Positions 28,738 to 59,131 of a stretch of DNA of 64,000 nt are shown piece after piece (within the stretch, counting starts at the first letter, position 1; each line of letters starts with the position of its first letter). The notes under the pieces were generated by a model that saw only the letters and a program-made list of their open reading frames with translations, did no database searches and was not told where the DNA came from. The stretch is from a virus. Made by a program: the position numbers and the translations under genes. The DNA lies in the IMG/VR virus record IMGVR_UViG_3300025141_000022, positions 62,001 through 126,000 of that record, one strand, 5' to 3'.

Positions 28738-29739
28738 ATGCGATCACACAAGCTTATTTTAGAGAATTGGCGAAAGTTTTTAAAAGAAGTAGACGCGGGC
28801 CCAACGGCTGCGATGCCTGCTCATTTAGATCCTAAAGTAAAGACACAGGCCGACTATGATACCCTGGACCAGATGGGCTATCAAGTTCTTAAGGAGCTTG
28901 GTCGTGGGCTATTTGGTATAGTATACCAAGTGGAAAATAAGCAAAGCGGAAAAAGGTTAGCCGCCAAGGTTGTTAAAGCAGACAATCGAGAGGCAGAAAA
29001 TTACCAGTTCGCCATGGACAACAAAGCCTCCATGCCAGAAGAGTTTGGTAAATACCTACCAGAAGTATATGAGGTGGCCCCCGGCCACGATGGTTATAAT
29101 ATTATCCTCATGGAAGAGTTAGTACCTTTGGATCCCCAAGTTGCTCAAGAATTGTTTGCAGTGGAAACAGATGATGCAAATCAGGAAACTCCCGATTCTA
29201 AGAAACATGAAAAGATCTTCAGAGATCCAGAAGCTCTAGCTGAATTGGTTGGTGAATCTGTATACGCAAACAGAATATTACATCAATTAAATCTTGGTTT
29301 TAAGGAGATGAGAAGGCTTAGAATGGTAGCAAGAAAAGCAGTTACCAAAAAAGTTCACAACGATCTTGACTCCCTTGTGATGACCGTGTATGGTACTATA
29401 GTAAGAGAGATAGATGATCAGAGCGCAGCAATATATAAAGCTTTCGAAAAAGACTTGAAAGAAACTATGTCATATTATCTCAACAAGCAAATTGTACCAG
29501 TCCACCAGCCAGAGCCAGATGAGGAGTATTTGGAAACATGGACCTCTGGAGGTCTTGAAGGGACAAGAGCTTTGTTTCCAGAAGCTAAAGGTTTAGCACG
29601 AGCTATGAAATATTTTATGCAAGATAAGAATTGGCGACCAAAAGACGTGCATTGGAAAAATGTAATGGCAAGACCATCAACTAAAGATATGGTTATTGTT
29701 GATTTAGGATTATTTGAAAAAGGAATATTTGTATTATGA
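28738..29739 (+). CDS. Protein-kinase-like protein with putative capsid-targeting peptide
   Basis: A 333-residue protein with two parts. Residues 1-17 end in LENWRKFLKE, the type-A N-terminal peptide shared with the next four genes; cleavage after LKE17 would fit a T4-type prohead protease. The rest is a kinase-like fold: Gly-rich loop GRGLFGIVY (55-63), ATP-binding Lys77 in RLAAKVV, hinge-like IILMEEL (122-128), catalytic-loop equivalent D303-VHWK-N308 and DFG equivalent D322-L-G. All key catalytic residues are present, but the chain stops nine residues after DLG, so there is no normal activation segment or lower C-lobe. Packaging and injection as an early host-modifying kinase is inferred. 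It overlaps the next gene by 4 nt. Confidence 0.8.
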   Translation: MRSHKLILENWRKFLKEVDAGPTAAMPAHLDPKVKTQADYDTLDQMGYQVLKELGRGLFGIVYQVENKQSGKRLAAKVVKADNREAENYQFAMDNKASMPEEFGKYLPEVYEVAPGHDGYNIILMEELVPLDPQVAQELFAVETDDANQETPDSKKHEKIFRDPEALAELVGESVYANRILHQLNLGFKEMRRLRMVARKAVTKKVHNDLDSLVMTVYGTIVREIDDQSAAIYKAFEKDLKETMSYYLNKQIVPVHQPEPDEEYLETWTSGGLEGTRALFPEAKGLARAMKYFMQDKNWRPKDVHWKNVMARPSTKDMVIVDLGLFEKGIFVL

Positions 29740-30350
29740 AAATTATAATTGAAAATTGGAGAAGATATTTAAAAGAAGAGGTTGATCTTCAGGCTGCACA
29801 ACAGCTTATTGATGCGAACCCATATTTAAAAGGTAAATTAATGGCAACACCAGAGAGTATTATTGAAGGAGAGGGTTATGTTCTTGCCGTATCGGAAGAA
29901 TCACTGGGGCATATTAAAGATCGCCATATGGACGCTAGCGCCCCAGGCTCGCTGTTTCTTCCCGAAGTTGATTTAGGAGAGGTGATGAGAAGCTTGTTGT
30001 CTATGCCCCCAAGCGAAGAGTCAGGAGGCAGAGTGAAGTGGTTAGGCGTGGACGCCGGCATGCCAGTTGGAAAAATGGGCGTTAAACTTGGCGATCCAGA
30101 GGAAGTGGCAAAAATGCAAGATTATAAAATGCCCGGCGGAAGAAACGAAATGGTTAAATTAACTTCTGGTGAACGAGAGCCAACAAATGAAATTAGTCTA
30201 ATCACTGCGGAGCTTGGCGATCTGGGTGGTAAGAAATTATTATCTTTGATCACTGCCTTCCCCGGCGGCATAGAGGTTAATGGAAAAGAGATGCCCATGG
30301 ATAGAAACGATTTTGCTGCACAGGGTTTTTACTTTGTTGTATCACAATGA
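29736..30350 (+). CDS. Putative packaged protein with HIKDRH motif
   Basis: A 204-residue protein beginning with type-A peptide IIENWRRYLKE; cleavage after LKE14 is predicted by analogy. The body has SEESLGHIKDRHMD (54-67) followed by PGSLF, and ends with beta strands (LLSLITAFPGG, GFYFVVSQ). A His-x-x-x-Arg-His motif followed by PGS-aromatic recalls nuclease or toxin domains of the phage-associated barnase/EndoU/colicin/RelE-like (BECR) group; this is tentative and based on motif shape only. ATGA overlaps join it to both neighbours. If packaged, it would enter the host with the DNA. Confidence 0.7.
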   Translation: MKIIIENWRRYLKEEVDLQAAQQLIDANPYLKGKLMATPESIIEGEGYVLAVSEESLGHIKDRHMDASAPGSLFLPEVDLGEVMRSLLSMPPSEESGGRVKWLGVDAGMPVGKMGVKLGDPEEVAKMQDYKMPGGRNEMVKLTSGEREPTNEISLITAELGDLGGKKLLSLITAFPGGIEVNGKEMPMDRNDFAAQGFYFVVSQ

Positions 30351-31138
30351 AACTCCTACTTGAAAATTGGCGACTGTATTTGAACGAGATTACAACCCTT
30401 GATTCTGAACTAAAGCAGGGTTTTGCCGAAGCAATAGAAGATTCGCAATTCTGGACGCTACCCAATGCCGAAGATGATGTTGACATTGGCAACCACCCTG
30501 ACGAGATGGAAACCCCAGCCAGCGAGGCATTGAGAATTGCGCTAAACGAAAAAGCACAAGAGCTTGACACTGATTTATATTTTATTGTAACTGTTTCAAA
30601 TGTACATGTGTTATCTAAAGATGATCCGCATGGAGGGTATCCAAGTAATTGGATGTCGCATGGTATGTATCAGGGCCCTCAATCCGGCCATCATGTGATA
30701 TGGATAGAGCTTCGACCATTGGGAGATGATTATGAAATTTCTGAACTGAATCCTTCTGAATTGATAAAGAAGATCTCAAGAACCATTAACCATGAAATGG
30801 TACATTACAAACAACTAAAAAAGCAAGCTGAATCAAAGGGGATTAGTGAAGAAGACGCATGGCAGCAAATGATAGATGACCCGGCCCAACTACCACAAAC
30901 CAGCGATAGAACAGACTATCTGTCAAGGCATCCAGAAGTTGACGCTTACGCTCATGAAGCCGCCGAAGAATTAATAGATAAATATGGCGGTCGAAGGGCT
31001 CTACAACTAATTAAACAAAGAGACTCTGATGTTGTTGGAGTTTTGGCAGACTACAGAGAAGTTTTCAAAGACGACCGAGAAACAATGAAAAAGTTTTTAA
31101 AAAAGCTGTATTCACAAATTATGAGCAAGGAACAATAG
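30347..31138 (+). CDS. Zincin metalloprotease with putative capsid-targeting peptide
   Basis: A 263-residue protein. Residues 1-14 carry the type-A peptide (LLENWRLYLNE); LNE14 is a T4-type protease site. The body has a zincin motif, H149-E-M-V-H153 in TINHEMVHYKQ, and 44 residues later RHPEVDAYAHEA (Glu197/His203), which would supply the third zinc ligand as in related HExxH proteases with an E-x-[D/E]-A-x-A helix. No signal peptide. The substrate is unknown; packaging would deliver a protease into the host at injection. It overlaps the previous gene by 4 nt (ATGA) and is followed after one base by the next tagged gene. Confidence 0.8.
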   Translation: MKLLLENWRLYLNEITTLDSELKQGFAEAIEDSQFWTLPNAEDDVDIGNHPDEMETPASEALRIALNEKAQELDTDLYFIVTVSNVHVLSKDDPHGGYPSNWMSHGMYQGPQSGHHVIWIELRPLGDDYEISELNPSELIKKISRTINHEMVHYKQLKKQAESKGISEEDAWQQMIDDPAQLPQTSDRTDYLSRHPEVDAYAHEAAEELIDKYGGRRALQLIKQRDSDVVGVLADYREVFKDDRETMKKFLKKLYSQIMSKEQ

Positions 31139-31139
31139 A

Positions 31140-31703
31140 ATGAAACACGAATTGATAATGGAAAATTGGCGACAGTTCTTAAATGAAGAAGATGAAGAGC
31201 AGCTTGAAGAAGGCTGGAAAGAAAAAGTAGCCGGCTTAGCAGCAGTCGGGTCCATAGGGCTTGGGGCGCCTAATATGGCACACGCTGGACCTGGAGATAA
31301 TATAAGAGATAAATATCAATCAACTTTGCAAATGGCAAAAGAAAAAGGACAACAAGTTATCGATAAATTACCGGCGCCAATTGATCGCACATCTGGTGCA
31401 GGAGCTGAAGCAGAAAGTGGAACGTCTACTTCTGATGGCTATCAACAAAATGCTGATGGAACTCACGAATTTAGAGTTAAATTGCCTATTGAGAAATATG
31501 AAACACACGGCGGCAAGACTTTTGGCGAGATGAAGGCTCGAAACGGCCTTATGCAGGCGTTGCAGCAGTCGGGGATTGTAACCGGTGATACGATATCCGG
31601 TATATCGCTGTCTTATGATCGAGCTAATGGTCAAGTAGTTGCTAATTGGAGCCCAACATCATCGGCGACGGCTTCTGCTATTTATAAAGCTATGGGCAAC
31701 TGA
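31140..31703 (+). CDS. Putative packaged protein with export-signal-like segment
   Basis: A 187-residue protein starting with type-A peptide LIMENWRQFLNE (predicted cleavage after LNE16). Residues 27-49 then look like a signal sequence: a WKEK basic start, an Ala/Gly/Val-rich core and an Ala-His-Ala ending before GPGD, as for signal peptidase I. Removal of the first tag in the prohead would leave this signal near the new N-terminus. The remainder (about 100-187) is a small alpha/beta domain that I do not recognise. Part of the five-gene operon. Confidence 0.7.
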   Translation: MKHELIMENWRQFLNEEDEEQLEEGWKEKVAGLAAVGSIGLGAPNMAHAGPGDNIRDKYQSTLQMAKEKGQQVIDKLPAPIDRTSGAGAEAESGTSTSDGYQQNADGTHEFRVKLPIEKYETHGGKTFGEMKARNGLMQALQQSGIVTGDTISGISLSYDRANGQVVANWSPTSSATASAIYKAMGN

Positions 31704-31711
31704 AAATACTT

Positions 31712-32548
31712 ATGAAGCTCTTAATGGAAAACTGGCGGTATTACTTAACCGAAGAACAACAACTATCGGATGAGTTTTTAGAGTTTCTGTTTTCCGACAG
31801 AATAAGTGCTTTTATGAGCGATTCCACACTAAATGAGGTGGAGAGTTTAGAAACCAAAGCTAAAAGGCTAGCCAAGAAATATGGCGTCCCGTTTGCTATA
31901 GCTATGGGCATACTTACTGGTGCAGCAGGAAGCAAAGTAGTTGGAGACATGCAAAGTCCCGCTAACGACCCAGAAATTGTACAACAGATAGAGAAGCCCT
32001 CTCCGCGCTCCTCATTGCCGCCAGGGTATTCTGATCTGACTAATCTGCAGGCTATGGAAAAAGCATGGGAGACTATTGATGGTAAGCAACATCAAGCCGC
32101 CCCCGTTTCTGGCGGATATCCAACAGCGCAAGGTATGATGCCATTTACATATGTGCCTGCTGTAGAGTTATCTGGTGGCGACATTCTACCTATGTCACTA
32201 ATGACCGCCGATGAGTACAGGGCATTCATACTGGATAAACTAGAGAGTGGAAACCCACAGGAGGTTATTTACCTTAAGAATATGGTTTATGGGGATACCG
32301 CAAAATGGCTTTCAGGAACGGGAGAGTCAGACTTCAGGGTCACTAATGGGCTACCAGTTTTGCCACCAGAGTGGTCGATTGCACATGATGTATTCGCTAG
32401 CGAAGTAGAAGAACGAATAAATAAAGTAGTAGAATATTTGCAGGAAAATCCAGATCATAGAGAAGCCGTTGCTGTGGAGCTTAATCTTGCTAGCGTAGAT
32501 GATTTAGAACCTTTCATAAACAGTCAGTATGCAAAATTGGCTAGATGA
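31712..32548 (+). CDS. Putative packaged protein with hydrophobic segment
   Basis: A 278-residue protein with type-A peptide LLMENWRYYLTE (predicted cleavage after LTE14). Residues 58-77 (GVPFAIAMGILTGAAGSKVV) form one hydrophobic segment flanked by basic residues (KAKRLAKK), consistent with a single membrane span. The rest is soluble, mixed helical and unrecognised. It is the last gene of the block; a promoter lies 10 nt after its stop. Whether it acts in the virion or in the host membrane after injection cannot be told. Confidence 0.7.
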   Translation: MKLLMENWRYYLTEEQQLSDEFLEFLFSDRISAFMSDSTLNEVESLETKAKRLAKKYGVPFAIAMGILTGAAGSKVVGDMQSPANDPEIVQQIEKPSPRSSLPPGYSDLTNLQAMEKAWETIDGKQHQAAPVSGGYPTAQGMMPFTYVPAVELSGGDILPMSLMTADEYRAFILDKLESGNPQEVIYLKNMVYGDTAKWLSGTGESDFRVTNGLPVLPPEWSIAHDVFASEVEERINKVVEYLQENPDHREAVAVELNLASVDDLEPFINSQYAKLAR

Positions 32549-33723: not shown

Positions 33724-33912
33724 GTGGACGAAAGAGAACAAAAGATAAGATATGCCATTCAAAAGGCTATCAAAGAAATGAACTCTAAGCCAAGCGAAGA
33801 GTCAGTAGATTTGTTTGAAAAGGTTACTACGCTAATAAAAGAGCAGAAACTCAATCATGAACAACAGGCCGTTTTAATTGGAAAATTACTCGACTGGGAC
33901 TTAAACAAATGA
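33724..33912 (+). CDS. Small helical protein, unidentified
   Basis: A 62-residue charged, probably all-helical protein. The start is GTG, preceded by GAGGAG. It contains IRYAIQKAIKEMN and an LFEKVTTLIKEQKLNHEQQAVLIGKL stretch (read in two parts). Its stop overlaps the next gene's ATG (ATGA). No family recognised; it lacks the tag peptides of its neighbours. Confidence 0.7.
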   Translation: MDEREQKIRYAIQKAIKEMNSKPSEESVDLFEKVTTLIKEQKLNHEQQAVLIGKLLDWDLNK

Positions 33913-34186: not shown

Positions 34187-34513
34187 ATGAAAATTACAAA
34201 AGCACAACTTAAGCGAATAATTTTAGAAGAACTTAAAGCCGTGACAGAACTTGACAAACTTGATGATCAGGATCCGACTGCAGAAAGGCCCCCGGAGTCC
34301 ACCATGGATACATCAAAGATTGATCGAACTGGTGCCAAAGCTGGTGAAGAGATGCGTGACGTACAACTGGCAACAAAGTATTTGAAGAAAATCGACAACC
34401 ATAAAGAATTCGGACAACTACTCGCAGCCGTTCTAAAGCATGCCGAACAAGATCCACAGATGCAGGCTGTTCTTAAAAGAATGTTTCAACGCCGTCGAGA
34501 TGTGGGAGTATAG
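34187..34513 (+). CDS. Small protein with type-B N-terminal peptide
   Basis: A 108-residue protein that begins MKITKAQLKRIILEEL, a clear type-B peptide; the ILE14 site fits T4-type prohead proteases. The central part is charged and probably disordered (DQDPTAERPPEST); the C-terminal third is helical (LLAAVLKHAEQDPQMQAVLKR is the predicted helix region, residues about 80-100) and basic at the end. AAGGA lies before the ATG. Function unknown. Confidence 0.7.
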   Translation: MKITKAQLKRIILEELKAVTELDKLDDQDPTAERPPESTMDTSKIDRTGAKAGEEMRDVQLATKYLKKIDNHKEFGQLLAAVLKHAEQDPQMQAVLKRMFQRRRDVGV

Positions 34514-34523
34514 GGAGAACACA

Positions 34524-34994
34524 GTGGCTAAAAGAAAAAATGTAAAGAGAATTGACCCGAGATACTTTTTGGATGAAACAGTGCATAGAGGGCTGGATGA
34601 AGGTGTCGTAAAAAAGCCCTTTGGAGACACCATGATCACGCACGACGATTATGAGCAGTCTGACGAGCCTCCTCGCGATGACACTGGTGAGCCGCCCCTC
34701 ACACAACGCTCGCAACGTAAACTTAGCCACGATCATATGCTGGCAAGAATTAACGATGCAAAGCTATACCTCCAACAACAAGAGGACCCAGTTGCGTCAG
34801 AACTCTCGCAGGAGCTTGATGGCGTAATACACACTATGGAGTTGCTAAATGATTATTTTATGGGTGATATGCCCGCAGACGCGAATCCATTGAGCCGAAG
34901 ACCTCCCGGTGGAGGACTCGGTGGTCCGGGTAAAGGCCCCAGGCATATGCGCGGAGACTCGGGAGGCGGCTACCCAGAAGAGGAGATGTCGTGA
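34524..34994 (+). CDS. Protein with type-C N-terminal peptide (DPRYFLDE)
   Basis: A 156-residue protein. I chose GTG 34524, which follows AGGGAGA at proper distance; the ATG at 34440 in the same frame would lie inside the previous gene. The N-terminus KRKNVKRIDPRYFLDE closely matches NNKRRDPRYFLNE at the start of the protein coded at 47199-47747, and both end at an L-x-E site. The middle contains a helical segment (MLARINDAKLYLQQQ) and the end is Gly/Pro/Arg-rich, probably disordered. Its stop overlaps the GTG of the next gene. Likely another packaged protein, by inference. Confidence 0.7.
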   Translation: MAKRKNVKRIDPRYFLDETVHRGLDEGVVKKPFGDTMITHDDYEQSDEPPRDDTGEPPLTQRSQRKLSHDHMLARINDAKLYLQQQEDPVASELSQELDGVIHTMELLNDYFMGDMPADANPLSRRPPGGGLGGPGKGPRHMRGDSGGGYPEEEMS

Positions 34995-43387: not shown

Positions 43388-45376
43388 ATGGCAGATAGAA
43401 GAAGAAACCCAAGAAACCCGAGTTCAGAATTATTCGGCAGACTCACTAGACTATTTTCTGGTCCGCTGGTTAATTATCGGGCACAAGACATCAGAAGGTA
43501 CAGGCGCCGCCACCTAGATAAATTTAATTTTAAGTCTAGCAGCGGCCAAGAATTTAGAAAATCATCTTATAATCCATATGCTTCCTTGCAAACGGAGCTT
43601 ATGGTTAACCAAGATCGTGCGCTAAGATATGTTGATTTTGATCAGATGGAGTATACTCCAGAAATTGCTTCTGCGCTAGATATATACGCTGACGAAATGA
43701 CAACATACTCTGATTTGCAGAGAATGTTGTCTATCGATTGTCCAAACGAAGAGATCAAGGTTGTTCTTGATAGTTTATATCAGAGCGTAATGAACCTAGA
43801 GTTTAATTTGTTCGGCTGGTGTCGGACCATGTGTAAGTACGGAGACTTTTTTCTTTATCTCGATATCGATGAGGGAATGGGCGTCCGCGCCACAATTGGA
43901 TTGCCAGCTAACGAAGTAGAAAGGTTAGAGGGAGAAGACAAAACAAATCCAAATTATGTACAATATCAGTGGAACTCTGGCGGGCTAACATTCGAGAACT
44001 GGCAGATTGCCCACTTTAGGATTCTTGGAAATGATAAATATGCTCCATATGGAACATCTGTTCTAGAACCGGCACGAAGAATTTGGAGACAACTTACATT
44101 ACTAGAAGACGCCATGATGGCATATCGAATTGTTCGTTCTCCTGAGAGAAGGGTGTTTTACATTGATGTTGGCAACATTTCTCCACAAGATGTCGAAACT
44201 TATATGCAGAAAGCCATTACTCAGCTAAAGAGAAATCAAGTGGTTGATACAGAATCCGGCCGCGTTGACTTACGTTATAATCCAATGAGTATCGAAGAGG
44301 ATTATTTTATCCCCGTCAGGGGCCAAACAAGTTCGCGAATTGAAAATCTTCCAGGCGGGACATATACGGGTGATATTGAGGACGTTAAGTATTTGCGCGA
44401 AAAGCTGTTCTCGGCACTGAAGATCCCAATGTCATATTTGGCTCAGGGCGAGGGTGCCGCAGAGGATAAAACAACATTAGCACAAAAGGATATTCGATTT
44501 GCTAGAACTATTCAGAGGCTTCAGCGTGTTATAATTAGCGAATTGGAAAAAATTGGTATCGTCCACCTTTATACCCTAGGGTATCGTGGTGATGACTTGA
44601 TTTCTTTCAAACTTCGCCTAAATAACCCTTCTAAGATTGCTGAATTACAAGAATTGGAACACTGGAGGACAAAGTTCGAAGTTGCCGGCGGAGCCACAGA
44701 AGGATTCTTTTCTCGTCGCTGGGTCGCTAAAAAGTTATTCAATATGACTGACGAAGAATTCATCAGAAACCAGAGAGAAATGTTCTTTGATAGAAGATTT
44801 GATGCTCAACTTGAAGCTGAGTCTGAAGCTGTTGCGGCAGAAGCTACAGCCGCCGCCGGCGGTGGTGAAGACCTTGGCCTAGGCGATGAGGAGGGCGGAG
44901 ACGAAGATCTCGGCCTAGGCGGCGAAGAGGATCTTGGCGGCGAAGAGGATCTTGGCGGCGAAGAAGAAGGTGGAGAAGAAGATGTCCTATTGGCCGAGCC
45001 TGCTAAGAGAAAAGATGATATCGATGGTGATATTGTTAGGACCAGAACTGGCAGAAAAGCATATAAGCCAAAGGGTTCTAACAAGGTGTACACACGCGGC
45101 TCCAAAGGCAAAGGGTATGTGCCCGAGACATCTCCAGACTACGCCGGGAGTGCTCGCCAGCGCAGTATTCAAGGCCAATATGGCAGAGAGGTGGCGAGAG
45201 CCACCCTAAGAAACACTCATAAGGGCGCTCAAGACATGTTTAGTCTTGGAAAAGGGATTTACGAAGGATATGAAACTAATTATAGTTCGGAAGAAGAGAA
45301 GATATTTGAAGCCAGTAAAACGGTGAAAGATCTAATCATAGAATTGGAGCTTAAACAGAATGAAGACAAAACATAA
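43388..45376 (+). CDS. 20: Portal vertex protein (gp20-like) with acidic C-terminal extension
   Basis: A 662-residue portal protein. Typical parts: DFDQMEYTPEIASALDIYADE (residues ~80-100), LFGWCRTMCKYGDFFLYLDI, the stem/crown region with FRILGNDKYAPYGTSVLEPARR, and IPMSYLAQGEGAAEDKTTLAQ. T4 gp20 is 524 residues. Here about 140 extra residues follow residue ~490: a Gly/Glu/Asp/Leu repeat tract (GEEDLG units, 44866-44999), then a basic segment and a helical end. The repeat tract is coded by near-exact 18-nt units. The end overlaps the next gene by 17 nt. Confidence 0.93.
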   Translation: MADRRRNPRNPSSELFGRLTRLFSGPLVNYRAQDIRRYRRRHLDKFNFKSSSGQEFRKSSYNPYASLQTELMVNQDRALRYVDFDQMEYTPEIASALDIYADEMTTYSDLQRMLSIDCPNEEIKVVLDSLYQSVMNLEFNLFGWCRTMCKYGDFFLYLDIDEGMGVRATIGLPANEVERLEGEDKTNPNYVQYQWNSGGLTFENWQIAHFRILGNDKYAPYGTSVLEPARRIWRQLTLLEDAMMAYRIVRSPERRVFYIDVGNISPQDVETYMQKAITQLKRNQVVDTESGRVDLRYNPMSIEEDYFIPVRGQTSSRIENLPGGTYTGDIEDVKYLREKLFSALKIPMSYLAQGEGAAEDKTTLAQKDIRFARTIQRLQRVIISELEKIGIVHLYTLGYRGDDLISFKLRLNNPSKIAELQELEHWRTKFEVAGGATEGFFSRRWVAKKLFNMTDEEFIRNQREMFFDRRFDAQLEAESEAVAAEATAAAGGGEDLGLGDEEGGDEDLGLGGEEDLGGEEDLGGEEEGGEEDVLLAEPAKRKDDIDGDIVRTRTGRKAYKPKGSNKVYTRGSKGKGYVPETSPDYAGSARQRSIQGQYGREVARATLRNTHKGAQDMFSLGKGIYEGYETNYSSEEEKIFEASKTVKDLIIELELKQNEDKT

Positions 45377-47198: not shown

Positions 47199-47747
47199 AT
47201 GAGTAGATGGGGAAAACCAACCAAAAATAACAAGAGAAGAGATCCAAGATACTTCTTGAACGAACAAGAGGAAAAGGAAGCACAGCGCGATCCATCAGGT
47301 GGCGCCCCAGCTGCCCAATTGGATGAAAAAGAAGTTCTACCACTAATCCAAAGCTTCTATAAGGCTATGCGCGCAGCCCGCGATGGGGTGCAATCTTCCC
47401 GTAAAGCTTTAGGCGATGACTGGGTTAAAAAACAAGCCCAAAAATATTCCCAAAGAGCCGGCGATCAAGAACAAAATCTTAAGATGTGGTTTCAAACCAC
47501 GGTGGGCGACGGCATGTGGCGCGCCGCTCGTGCCATGGCTCCTGTTTATGCTGACATTAGAAAAGGCGCCCGAGGATCTGCTAACTCGATAGATATCATC
47601 GCACACCATGCTGGCGACATGGCAGAGAAATTTTTGCAACAAACAAAGGGCATGAAAGCCAAAATGGCATTTCTAGAACAATTTGACGAGTTAACCAAAG
47701 AGTATTTTGAAAACACTGAGAGATTTGGAAAGGGACACATACTGTGA
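47199..47747 (+). CDS. Protein with type-C N-terminal peptide (DPRYFLNE), next to protease
   Basis: A 182-residue protein. The N-terminus KNNKRRDPRYFLNE matches the start of the protein at 34524 and ends at an L-N-E site. The body is helical: VLPLIQSFYKAMRAARDGVQ, an AQKYSQRAGDQEQN stretch, MAPVYADIRKGARGSANSID and AKMAFLEQFDELTKEYF. It is not recognised as a T4 core protein, but is placed directly before the protease, where T4 has gp67/gp68, both cut by that protease. CGGAG precedes the ATG, and the stop overlaps the GTG of the protease gene. Confidence 0.7.
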   Translation: MSRWGKPTKNNKRRDPRYFLNEQEEKEAQRDPSGGAPAAQLDEKEVLPLIQSFYKAMRAARDGVQSSRKALGDDWVKKQAQKYSQRAGDQEQNLKMWFQTTVGDGMWRAARAMAPVYADIRKGARGSANSIDIIAHHAGDMAEKFLQQTKGMKAKMAFLEQFDELTKEYFENTERFGKGHIL

Positions 47748-48352
47748 AAGTACTTTTACGAGAATACTATGAATTATGTGAAGGCGGTGTTTGCCAAGAT
47801 CTTTTAACTGAAGATGAAAAGAGATATGTGGCAAACGGCGGCTTAATTTTGACTGGAAAACTACAAGAAGCAGATGTGCAAAACGGGAACGGCCGTGTGT
47901 ATCCGCAAAGAGTATTACAGAGAGAAATGCAAAATTACCAAAAACTTGTAAAAGAAAGAAGAGCCCTTGGAGAGTTAGATCATCCTGAAGATTCAGTTAT
48001 TAACCTTAAGAACGCATCTCATATGGTTACAGAGGTGTGGTGGGATGGTTCTGCGGTTATGGGTAAAGTTAAAGTTTTAAATACGCCATCTGGCAAAATA
48101 TTACAAGAATTAGTGAGTGATGGTGTTAAGCTGGGAATTTCGTCCCGTGGCTTGGGATCTGTTAGCGAATCACAAGGGAGAACAATTGTCGAAGACGATT
48201 TCACATTAATCTGTTTTGACTTCGTATCAGAACCATCAACGCCAAATGCATTTATGCTTAAAGAAAATAAGAATGCGCCAAATATTTTTACCAAAGCAGA
48301 CAAAATCAATCGCGCATTAAACGACATATTGGGAGATTATGACAATGAGTAA
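47744..48352 (+). CDS. 21: Prohead core protease (gp21-like)
   Basis: A 202-residue protease of the T4 gp21/herpes assemblin-like fold. Conserved elements: ALGELDHPEDS with catalytic His80, NLKNASHMVTEVWWDG, and VKLGISSRGLGSV with the catalytic Ser at 133/134. In T4 this enzyme, inside the prohead, cuts scaffold, capsid and internal proteins after [L/I]-x-E and then itself. Its own start, VLLREYYELCE13, resembles the type-A peptides and ends in L-C-E. GTG start, overlapping the preceding stop. This gene is the main support for reading the tags as cleavage sites. Confidence 0.92.
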   Translation: MKVLLREYYELCEGGVCQDLLTEDEKRYVANGGLILTGKLQEADVQNGNGRVYPQRVLQREMQNYQKLVKERRALGELDHPEDSVINLKNASHMVTEVWWDGSAVMGKVKVLNTPSGKILQELVSDGVKLGISSRGLGSVSESQGRTIVEDDFTLICFDFVSEPSTPNAFMLKENKNAPNIFTKADKINRALNDILGDYDNE

Positions 48353-56150: not shown

Positions 56151-57254
56151 ATGTCATCAATGTTACAGCAGGCTATTATAGACGCATCGGCCTTAAGAGA
56201 GGCCGCCGTTAAAAACGCAGAAGCCGCTATTATTGAAAAGTACACACACGAAATTAAGAATGCCGTAGATTCCCTTTTGGAACAAGAGGAAGAATTAGGG
56301 CTAGAAGAAGATCCTTTGGCTATGGAAGAGCCTGGAGCCGAAGAAGCTCCTGCCGCAGTTCCCGAAGCCCCAGCGGCGCACACCGAGGGAGAAAATCTTT
56401 GCCCCTGCCCAGAAGATGAGGAGGAAGTGGAGATTGTTTTTGATGAGTTGGCAAGCCAATTTGCTGCAGAACAGGATGTTGGCAAGTCTCATGAAGAGTT
56501 AGCCGGCGGCATTCCACAAGCCGCGCCCCCTACACCTCTAGGAGAGGGCAATAAGAAGGAAGAAGAAGTTGTCGAAGAAGAATTAGTCGAAGAAGGCGAC
56601 GAAAATGTCGAAATCTCAGAGGAGCTATTAAAAAGTGTTATTTTTGAACTCACTGAAGACGAAAATGTTGAACTAGATGACGACAAGGTTAAAGAAATAG
56701 CAGAAAAGCTAGCTGTAGATATTAAAGTTGTGCCAAATGCACCAAATGCAGCCGCTCAGTTTACACCATCTGGCGAACAAGAGCATGCAGCCGACTTAGA
56801 ATTGGCCGCTCAGCAAGATGACGAGTTAGCTGAAGAAAACGACGAACTCAAGAAAGCTGTAAAAGAACTTGAGGAAAATATTAAAGATTTAAAAACTGAA
56901 AACAAGAGATATAAAGATACTGTTTTGCAATTAAAGGATAAATTTGACGAAGTGAATCTTTCAAATGCAAAACTACTATATACGAACCGAGTATTGGAAA
57001 GCACCTCCTTGAATGAGCGACAAAAAGAACAAATTGTCGAAACTCTTTCAAATGCCAGTTCGATTAGCGAGGCGAAGGTTATTTTTGAAACACTTCAAAG
57101 CACAGTGGGAGCTTCTACTAAGAAAACTCCACAATCACTGAGCGAAGCTGTGACAAGAGGAGCCTCAACCATGCTGCCTAGAAGGCAAAAAAGACAAAAT
57201 GTTAACGATCCAACAACGACTAGATGGAGACAACTAGCCGGGATCGAAAAATAA
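56151..57254 (+). CDS. 22: Prohead scaffold/core protein (gp22-like)
   Basis: A 367-residue acidic scaffold. The first ~60 residues are helical (MLQQAIIDASALREAAVK, EKYTHEIKNAVDSLLEQ), followed by a Glu/Pro/Ala-rich stretch. Residues ~224-300 are coiled coil and end in the segment NAKLLYTNRVLESTSLNERQ with QIVETLSNASSISEAKVIFE, the most conserved part of T4 gp22-type core proteins. Many L-x-E/I-x-E sites are present, as expected for a core that is digested by the gp21 protease. The C-terminus is basic (LPRRQKRQ). Located directly before the capsid gene as in T4. Confidence 0.85.
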   Translation: MSSMLQQAIIDASALREAAVKNAEAAIIEKYTHEIKNAVDSLLEQEEELGLEEDPLAMEEPGAEEAPAAVPEAPAAHTEGENLCPCPEDEEEVEIVFDELASQFAAEQDVGKSHEELAGGIPQAAPPTPLGEGNKKEEEVVEEELVEEGDENVEISEELLKSVIFELTEDENVELDDDKVKEIAEKLAVDIKVVPNAPNAAAQFTPSGEQEHAADLELAAQQDDELAEENDELKKAVKELEENIKDLKTENKRYKDTVLQLKDKFDEVNLSNAKLLYTNRVLESTSLNERQKEQIVETLSNASSISEAKVIFETLQSTVGASTKKTPQSLSEAVTRGASTMLPRRQKRQNVNDPTTTRWRQLAGIEK

Positions 57255-57271
57255 AAAGGAGAAAACAAAAT

Positions 57272-59131
57272 ATGTCTGTATTAGAACGTTTGACAGAAGG
57301 TATCGTTGAACGCAATCTTGGCCAGGAAGGTGCTGCTCTACTTAAGAAGTGGGAAAGAACCGGACTGCTTGAGGGTGTTCGTAACGATCATGAAAAACAA
57401 ACAATGGCTCGCTTGCTTGAAAATCAAGCTAGAGAGCTTCTACGCGAATCTTCTACCATGGCCGCTGGCGATGTTGAAGGTTTTGCAGCCGTTGCATTTC
57501 CGATTGTTCGGCGTGTATTCGGTGGCTTGATTGCTAACGATCTCGTTAGTGTTCAGCCAATGAGCCTCCCATCGGGACTTATCTTCTTCCTAGATTTTAA
57601 GTATTCCCCAGATGCTGGTGGCAACGCCAGTGGTGGTGATTTCCCCCGTGTCGGTGTCAATGAGGATACATCACTTTATGGTGGTGGCCGAGTTGGTGCT
57701 CAGATCACAGGTGGTGTTGATCTAACTCCATCTGGTTCAACAGTTGCAGGTGCTGGCGCTTCACGCGATCACAGTTTCTACAACTTAGGTTCAGGTTACT
57801 CTAGCCCAACGGCTTCGGTTGACTTGACCATCACTTGTATCGCATCCGGTACTCTCGGAGCAGTTACTTCTAGTAACATGGTGTCCTTGACACATGCTTC
57901 TATTGGTGCTAGCACCGTTACAACCTCTCTTGAGGAGCTTTGCCGATACGATCCAGATCTTTCTGGTTCCGTCGTCACAGTTTGTACAGCACCCGGTGTT
58001 GCTGGCTTAAGCCAGATGAACCGCCTCAACTTAATCGCAATGCAACCCGCTCAGGGTGATGAGATTGATGTTGGTAAGGCTAAGTTGGTTCGTCGTCTGA
58101 CTCACCTTCGTGGTAAGTCTGCTGCTGCAGCTACAACTTCACCTGAAGGTCTGTCTCTAATCAACGCAACCGACACATCTCTTGTGTTCGTTTTCGAAGG
58201 TGGAACAGGTCTGAACGAGGGCGCAGTTGCTGGTGAGACAACTGGTACCATGACGGTCGATTTCCCAATTGATGATGACTTCATTGCAGGTCCATCCGTT
58301 GGTTCGGTTGTTGGTGATGCTACATGGGGACTGGAAGCCAATCCAGACATCCCAGAGATTGACATCGACGTTAGTTCGGTGGCTATCACTGCGATGACCA
58401 AGAAGCTCAAGGCTAAGTGGTCACCAGAGTTGGGGCAGGATCTTAACGCCTACCACAACTTGGATGCAGAGGTTGAGCTAACTGGTATTCTTTCTGAGCA
58501 AGTTGCTCTTGAAATTGATCGTGAGATTCTCAACGATCTTGTTCAGGGTGCTGCTGCCGGAACTTATTACTGGTCACGCCGCCCCGGTCGATTCACCGAC
58601 CGTGTTACTGGTAGACACATTAATGTCCTAGGTGAAGGTACTTCAGCTACGGATGTCGGTGGACCTGAGTTCACTGGTAATGTGTCTGAGTGGTATGAGA
58701 CACTTGTTGAGACAATCAACGATGTTTCCGCTCAAATTCATCGTAAGACTCTACGCGGTGGAGCTAACTTCTTGGTGGTTTCCCCAGAAGTTGCTAACAT
58801 CCTTGAGTTCACAAGTGGATTCCGCGCTAGCGTAACCCATGATGATGATAAGGGCTCTGTTGGAGCAGTTAAGGCTGGCTCTATTTCTAAGAAGTGGGAC
58901 GTTTGGGTTGACCCATACTTCCCCCGCAATGTGATCCTTGTTGGTCGTCGCGGAAGCAGCTTCCTAGAAAGCGGCTATGTTTACGCTCCATATGTACCAC
59001 TACAGATGACTCCCACCATCTTTGGACCAGAGGACTTCGTGCCCCGTAAGGGCGTGATGACTCGCTATGCCAAGAAGATGGTACGTCCAGATATGTATGG
59101 TGTAGTCGTTGTCCAGAACTTGTTAGGCTAG
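57272..59131 (+). CDS. 23: Major capsid protein (gp23-like, HK97 fold)
   Basis: A 619-residue capsid protein. ATG 57272 lies 9 nt after AAGGAG. The N-terminal helical region (SVLERLTEGIVERNL to ENQARELLRE) precedes the conserved FAAVAFPIVRRVFGGLIAND and VSVQPMSLPSGLIFFLDF segments, which match gp23-type proteins. A likely maturation site is LRE59-S60, close to the known T4 gp23 cut after residue 65. The middle (about 130-350) is a Gly/Thr-rich insertion; the C-terminal part holds a VALEIDREILNDL helix and RPDMYGVVVVQNLLG. It is the most abundant virion protein; codons here look more uniform (many GTT/GCT/ATC) than in neighbours. Confidence 0.93.
   Translation: MSVLERLTEGIVERNLGQEGAALLKKWERTGLLEGVRNDHEKQTMARLLENQARELLRESSTMAAGDVEGFAAVAFPIVRRVFGGLIANDLVSVQPMSLPSGLIFFLDFKYSPDAGGNASGGDFPRVGVNEDTSLYGGGRVGAQITGGVDLTPSGSTVAGAGASRDHSFYNLGSGYSSPTASVDLTITCIASGTLGAVTSSNMVSLTHASIGASTVTTSLEELCRYDPDLSGSVVTVCTAPGVAGLSQMNRLNLIAMQPAQGDEIDVGKAKLVRRLTHLRGKSAAAATTSPEGLSLINATDTSLVFVFEGGTGLNEGAVAGETTGTMTVDFPIDDDFIAGPSVGSVVGDATWGLEANPDIPEIDIDVSSVAITAMTKKLKAKWSPELGQDLNAYHNLDAEVELTGILSEQVALEIDREILNDLVQGAAAGTYYWSRRPGRFTDRVTGRHINVLGEGTSATDVGGPEFTGNVSEWYETLVETINDVSAQIHRKTLRGGANFLVVSPEVANILEFTSGFRASVTHDDDKGSVGAVKAGSISKKWDVWVDPYFPRNVILVGRRGSSFLESGYVYAPYVPLQMTPTIFGPEDFVPRKGVMTRYAKKMVRPDMYGVVVVQNLLG

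Follow-up and report, generated by a model that had tools for sequence, protein, structure and literature searches.

The window, that is, the whole 64,000-nucleotide stretch analyzed here, is part of a 184,913-bp IMG/VR virus record (IMGVR_UViG_3300025141_000022) and holds, on its plus strand, five consecutive open reading frames (ORFs) that share an N-terminal peptide, M..[ILM]ENWRx[FY]LxE, hereafter the tag. Its positions and the starts of the ORFs are as a first, sequence-only reading had given them, and the translations bear out that LxE ends each of the five tags. The same reading had called the remainders of the proteins (the bodies) unrelated, and the five ORFs indeed fall into five different blastp clusters, the body of the first sharing only 13 to 22% with the other four in forced alignments.

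The first tag, MRSHKLILENWRKFLKE (28738 to 28788; predicted cut after E17), is in the register of the T4 capsid-targeting sequence (CTS) and heads a protein kinase-like protein of 333 amino acids (28738 to 29739). Its match to the Pkinase family (E = 6e-6) lies under the curated cutoff; a G-rich loop, AxK, KDVHxxNV, and DLGLF are conserved across four relatives, at least three of which are tagged. The second, MKIIIENWRRYLKE (29736 to 29777; predicted cut after E14), precedes a 204-amino-acid protein of unrecognized fold (29736 to 30350) with a conserved HxxxxH and PGS. All seven members of this family are tagged; in the relatives, E14 and a hydrophobic residue 12 are retained, while W8 and R9 drift. 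The family gave no fold match, its structure model being poor (pLDDT 51), and we make no claim that the HxxxxH...PGS arrangement resembles phage RNase-like domains. The third tag, MKLLLENWRLYLNE (30347 to 30388; predicted cut after E14), belongs to a zincin-like metalloprotease of 263 amino acids (30347 to 31138) with HE[ML]VH and, downstream, HxE[VI]DA. HExxH is conserved in L054 and L073, and E[VI]DA further along is common to all three relatives, which the pattern scan had missed and which turned up among the fetched loci; a search of the family library gave nothing above the cutoff. Tag MKHELIMENWRQFLNE (31140 to 31187; predicted cut after E16) is followed by a hydrophobic Ala/Gly-rich stretch in a 187-amino-acid protein (31140 to 31703) for which the family search again found nothing above the cutoff, and MKLLMENWRYYLTE (31712 to 31753; predicted cut after E14) begins a 278-amino-acid protein (31712 to 32548) with a single hydrophobic stretch and no match in the family search.

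Of the 222 N-terminal 22-mers in the record as a whole, 8 contain W[RK]x[FYV][LIV]xE, compared with 0 of 2348 other 22-mers (Fisher p = 2.8e-9). Besides the five there are three copies beyond the window, at record positions 145758 (MNKKWKNFINE), 146372 (MNINKWRNFLNE), and 175237 (MNDKWKKYLSE).

The genome is T4-like. It encodes a T4-type portal protein (gp20; 43388 to 45376; PF07230, E = 2.6e-76), a prohead protease (47744 to 48352), and the major capsid protein gp23 (57224 to 59131; PF07068, E = 4.7e-70), all on the plus strand and in the same genome as the tagged genes. The protease, predicted from the sequence alone, proved to be a peptidase S77 of the T4 gp21 type (PF03420, E = 1.6e-32; PHROG 207, E = 2e-54). 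An acidic protein with many [LI]xE sites, encoded upstream of gp23 on the same strand (56151 to 57254), is the probable core or scaffold protein; it has no family match and is a gp22-type candidate by position and composition only. In T4, the first 65 residues of gp23 are removed (PMC9958956), and LLRE75 of the gp23 found here aligns with the T4 cut FLTE65.

Other short N-terminal peptides were seen in the window. MKITKxxLKxIIxEEL is shared by short, otherwise different ORFs at 33909, 34187, 34991, and about 40311, and recurs as an internal repeat at 34991 as well; Flavobacterium phage immuto (L347) and L354 have similar peptides (MKKSQLRxIIxxEL). It is possibly another head or core signal. 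Two otherwise different ORFs (34440 to 34994 and 47199 to 47747) carry R[RI]DPRYFL[ND]E near the N terminus, which ends in FLxE and is a possible third type of tag.

Register, predicted cleavage site, and exchange of the tag

The N termini of T4 ipII and ipIII read MKTYQEFIAEA, and T4 cut sites include FIAE10, FLTE65, and LLRE10. In amber-suppressor work on the IPIII CTS, targeting depended mainly on residues 4 and 7 and processing on residues 8 and 10, and Asp at residue 10 prevented processing but left targeting intact (PMC9026906). When T4 and the tag are aligned at the cut, Y4-x-x-F7-I8-x-E10 coincides with W8-x-x-[FY]11-L12-x-E14, so that with equal spacing W8 and [FY]11 correspond to the targeting residues 4 and 7, and L12 and E14 to the processing residues 8 and 10. 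The likeness to the targeting peptide of T4 internal proteins, proposed in the sequence-only reading, is thus an in-register match with the mutated CTS positions. A cultured marine relative, phage Melnitz-2, has MQGFKTFLSEA in the same register.

Like the tag, the CTS of IPI, IPII, IPIII, and Alt occupies the N-terminal 10 to 20 residues, follows the pattern aromatic-x-x-aromatic-[LI]-x-E, and is found on unrelated proteins (Mullaney and Black 1996; reviewed in PMC9026906 and PMC9958956), and both kinds of genome encode a gp21-type protease. In T-even phages, variable internal proteins are already known to bear CTS-like sequences (PMC3012670, PMC9026906). The tag differs in being longer, with a nearly fixed ENWR, and location in the virion has been shown for the T4 proteins only. 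No description of the ENWR tag was found in the literature searched, from whose scope most subscription journals and preprints were absent. More distant parallels exist. The giant phages phiKZ and SPN3US eject head proteins that are cut after Glu by an S77-related protease, but several of their propeptides exceed 100 residues, the propeptides are not common to a wide range of unrelated cargoes, and in SPN3US the motif reads A-x-E, unlike the [LI]xE of the tag (PMC5694885). N-terminal residues of P1 DarB direct this antirestriction protein, and a reporter, into the head, although no short motif across many proteins has been reported and the head type differs (PMC9024508).

Since the patterns used for searching could have imposed the cleavage motif, a control scan fixed only MKLxxENWR and left [LI]xE free, and 100 distinct N termini in 80 loci were listed. 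Among these loci, 82 of the 100 N termini had [LI]xE at position 12/13, against 0 to 3 for other free positions; LxE is not a search artifact. The free positions that are conserved correspond, in the site cut by the T4 protease, to P4, P3, and P1. A clean [LIVM]xE is missing in about 12 to 18% of tag-like N termini. The position of the predicted cut is also marked by a natural comparison. Three tagged proteins (L009, L044, and L094) read LNE/LQE/LDE-GGN[VI]F, and their ortholog in Flavobacterium phage immuto, which has no tag and aligns with them from residue 15, starts M-GGNVF, that is, at the predicted cut, exactly after Glu.

One body may bear various tags: that encoded at record position 145758 has MNKKWKNFINE here and MKLLFESWRNFIKE, MKLLFEGWRKYLDE, and others elsewhere, and a HAD nucleotidase body has MNDKWKKYLSE, MKLLFENWRRFLIE, MKYSAFKAETLNLHLVQE, or MKKVMGNLADLLLEE. 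The shared 5' end might instead be a feature of the DNA, a recombination hot spot or translation enhancer serving gene shuffling, with a functionless peptide; cassettes with different bodies do stand in tandem, and the tag has some codon bias (GAA at position 6 and A-ending codons at position 4). However, third positions vary at codons 3, 7, 9, 11, 12, and 14 while the residues stay, nothing but a weak ribosome-binding signal is conserved in the 40 bases upstream, and the motif is found at C termini too, and we give a DNA-level origin hardly any credence. Selection on the tag, as far as these codons allow it to be judged, acts at the protein level.

We put the probability that the peptide serves as a T4-type capsid-targeting sequence at roughly 85%, an estimate resting on sequence comparison, with the loading, S77 trimming, and injection of the bodies being inferred. 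Those elements of the sequence-only interpretation that are open to a test by sequence all gave results in its favor.

Distribution, cargo, and the S77 protease

At least 120 stretches in IMG/VR match an ATG-anchored DNA pattern for the tag, whereas 257 Gb of genomes from bacteria and archaea gave only two matches, each of them in phage-like DNA of metagenome-assembled genomes. The IMG/VR proteins include at least 256 distinct complete tagged sequences, which blastp groups by body into 111 clusters (72 singletons), or about 110 given that one is a chance match. The portal protein of L188, considered as a tagged protein, was rejected as a chance match, its MKFIVENWRQIPFWRK being without LxE, and the short-tag pattern MKxKW also picked up a few chance ORFs of 28 to 76 amino acids. 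Strict copies of the core number 0 to 7 in each tagged record of at least 130 kb, and none was present in five control records. A tblastn search of cultured phages with a 20-amino-acid consensus tag gave no match, the query being too short to prove absence, and no cultured carrier of the tag was found. In the metagenome-assembled WOR-3 bin77 chromosome (L355, CP070664.1), tagged phage genes lie close to a GroEL-like fragment, in what may be a prophage or an assembly chimera; a GroEL-like protein, recognized by eye, is also encoded in the present phage at record positions 167511 to 169079, outside the window.

The sequence-only reading had suggested looking for co-occurrence with gp21-type proteases, and S77 was found in every one of the 17 tagged records that reach 130 kb. 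It was found in 6 of 39 tagged contigs below that length and in 3 of 50 control records drawn by a random 14-mer; only three of these controls reached 130 kb, one of them with S77. Most of the shorter tagged contigs are without gp23 too and therefore resemble fragments from which the head region is missing, although this was not shown one by one. The tagged region of a 108-kb contig corresponds to that of a 203-kb record with the protease at 123 kb, and a further contig (G009), with a partial gp23 and no S77 found, holds at one end a tagged block in the place of the protease. As T4-like phages have S77 among their core genes, the co-occurrence is confounded by lineage; the association is real but partly one of descent.

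The cargo is diverse. For the family of the body at record position 145758, the predicted fold is GNAT-like (pLDDT 77; best PDB E-value 8e-4, TM about 0.4 to 0.55), and other tagged bodies match Nudix, HAD, P-loop/polynucleotide kinase, Zeta-toxin-like, RNase T, M23 peptidase, ligase-phosphodiesterase, and GNAT families; most have no family match. T4, by comparison, tags only a few proteins, whereas about 110 body clusters, many of them enzymatic, were found here.

Conceivably, the tag does load proteins into the prohead, but ones that have a structural part or help the core to assemble and are not effectors for injection. Head assembly in T4 is influenced by IPIII (PMC9026906), and one family of about 840 amino acids, which has tags at both ends, is as common as a structural protein would be. 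Most bodies, however, are diverse and patchy in occurrence, and many have enzyme folds (kinase, Nudix, GNAT, P-loop, nuclease, and peptidase), for which reason effectors fit better than building parts and a helper role for the cargo at large seems unlikely, though not negligible.

C-terminal copies and a proposed route into the head

In 2390 proteins from the fetched loci, the frequency of W[KR]x[FY][LIV] per 1000 residues is 4.57 over the 25 N-terminal residues, 1.28 at the C terminus, and 0.052 between the two, the N-terminal figures, unlike the C-terminal ones, being inflated by the selection of the loci. The two ends differ in what follows the W[KR]x[FY]L core: Glu is present in 245 of 273 N-terminal cases and in 5 of 46 C-terminal ones. 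Because the C-terminal core is mostly without Glu, it seems that targeting can be separated from cleavage, as it was in the T4 mutants. Alt of T4 is itself cut at both ends (PMC9026906), and tagged phages depart from T4 in reaching seven strict copies per genome and in having C-terminal copies, mostly Glu-less.

The C-terminal cases come mostly from the family of about 840 amino acids, with single cases in L142, L035, and L044. The copy at record position 146372 ends in NSWRKFLNG, and many of its relatives in WKGFLNS or WKDYLRS. This family (L006:772-3291, equal to record positions 146372 to 148894) was seen in about 50 fetched loci, is very common near tagged genes, and has no Pfam match. Its N-terminal module is variable, being either the tag or MLNDEQILLKTAxLLDxLQE followed by EKCWDGYKQVGMKKKxGKxVPNCVP, and its C-terminal W[KR]x[FY]L is conserved.

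A core that seems to work at C termini without cleavage would also suit a peptide that docks proteins to some other phage structure, such as the tail, the baseplate, a membrane patch, or a replication complex, with [LI]xE merely part of a helix, and tagged genes are often distant from the head genes. Against such docking, conservation in the free scan falls on positions of the T4 protease site, Glu is retained where cutting would set a body free, the untagged ortholog begins just behind it, and the spacing is that of the mutated T4 CTS residues. We hold this explanation to be improbable and retain that of a head-targeting signal.

Because the tag closely matches a T4 signal that targets proteins to the head and is then removed, it probably marks proteins carried into the host. 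During assembly of the prohead core, W and the [FY] three residues on, with the preceding hydrophobic residues, would dock to a core protein, by which means unrelated proteins would be loaded. Once the shell has closed, S77 would cut after the Glu of [LI]xE, freeing a body that stays inside with the DNA; for this step the motif, the protease, and a substrate site in the capsid protein have been shown, the cleavage itself being inferred. A C-terminal tag could target its protein but mostly could not be cut. At infection, by inference from T4, the bodies would reach the host cell along with the DNA and act ahead of phage gene expression as inhibitors of defence or takeover enzymes, the tag serving as a swappable module on many enzymes. 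There are no virion proteomics or cleavage data, and encapsidation, cleavage, injection, docking to the core, presence in the virion, and effector roles are inference only.

The proposed mechanism belongs to a known kind, that of the T4 CTS; what is new is the unusually large cargo repertoire and the C-terminal copies of the core. Copies elsewhere in the genome, the exact coincidence with the CTS residues mutated in T4, the occurrence of the core at C termini, and the breadth of its distribution were out of reach of the sequence-only reading and come from the present analysis. On balance, though with less assurance than for the peptide as a targeting signal, we favor a two-part code for import into the head, in which W[KR]x[FY]L, as an aromatic core for docking, and [LI]xE, as a cleavage site separable from it, have been used at either protein end and swapped among at least 100 unrelated proteins across widespread uncultured T4-like phages, each virion with its own preloaded enzymes for host takeover or counterdefence.

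The T4 CTS is known to specialists from a handful of small proteins. The tag described here can be recognized from sequence alone and is found on a large, mostly uncharacterized set of proteins in widespread uncultured phages. If the proposal is true, the residues for docking and those for cleavage would offer a testable split, and the question of what T4-like phages inject would become one of sequence search, which names candidate counterdefence proteins.
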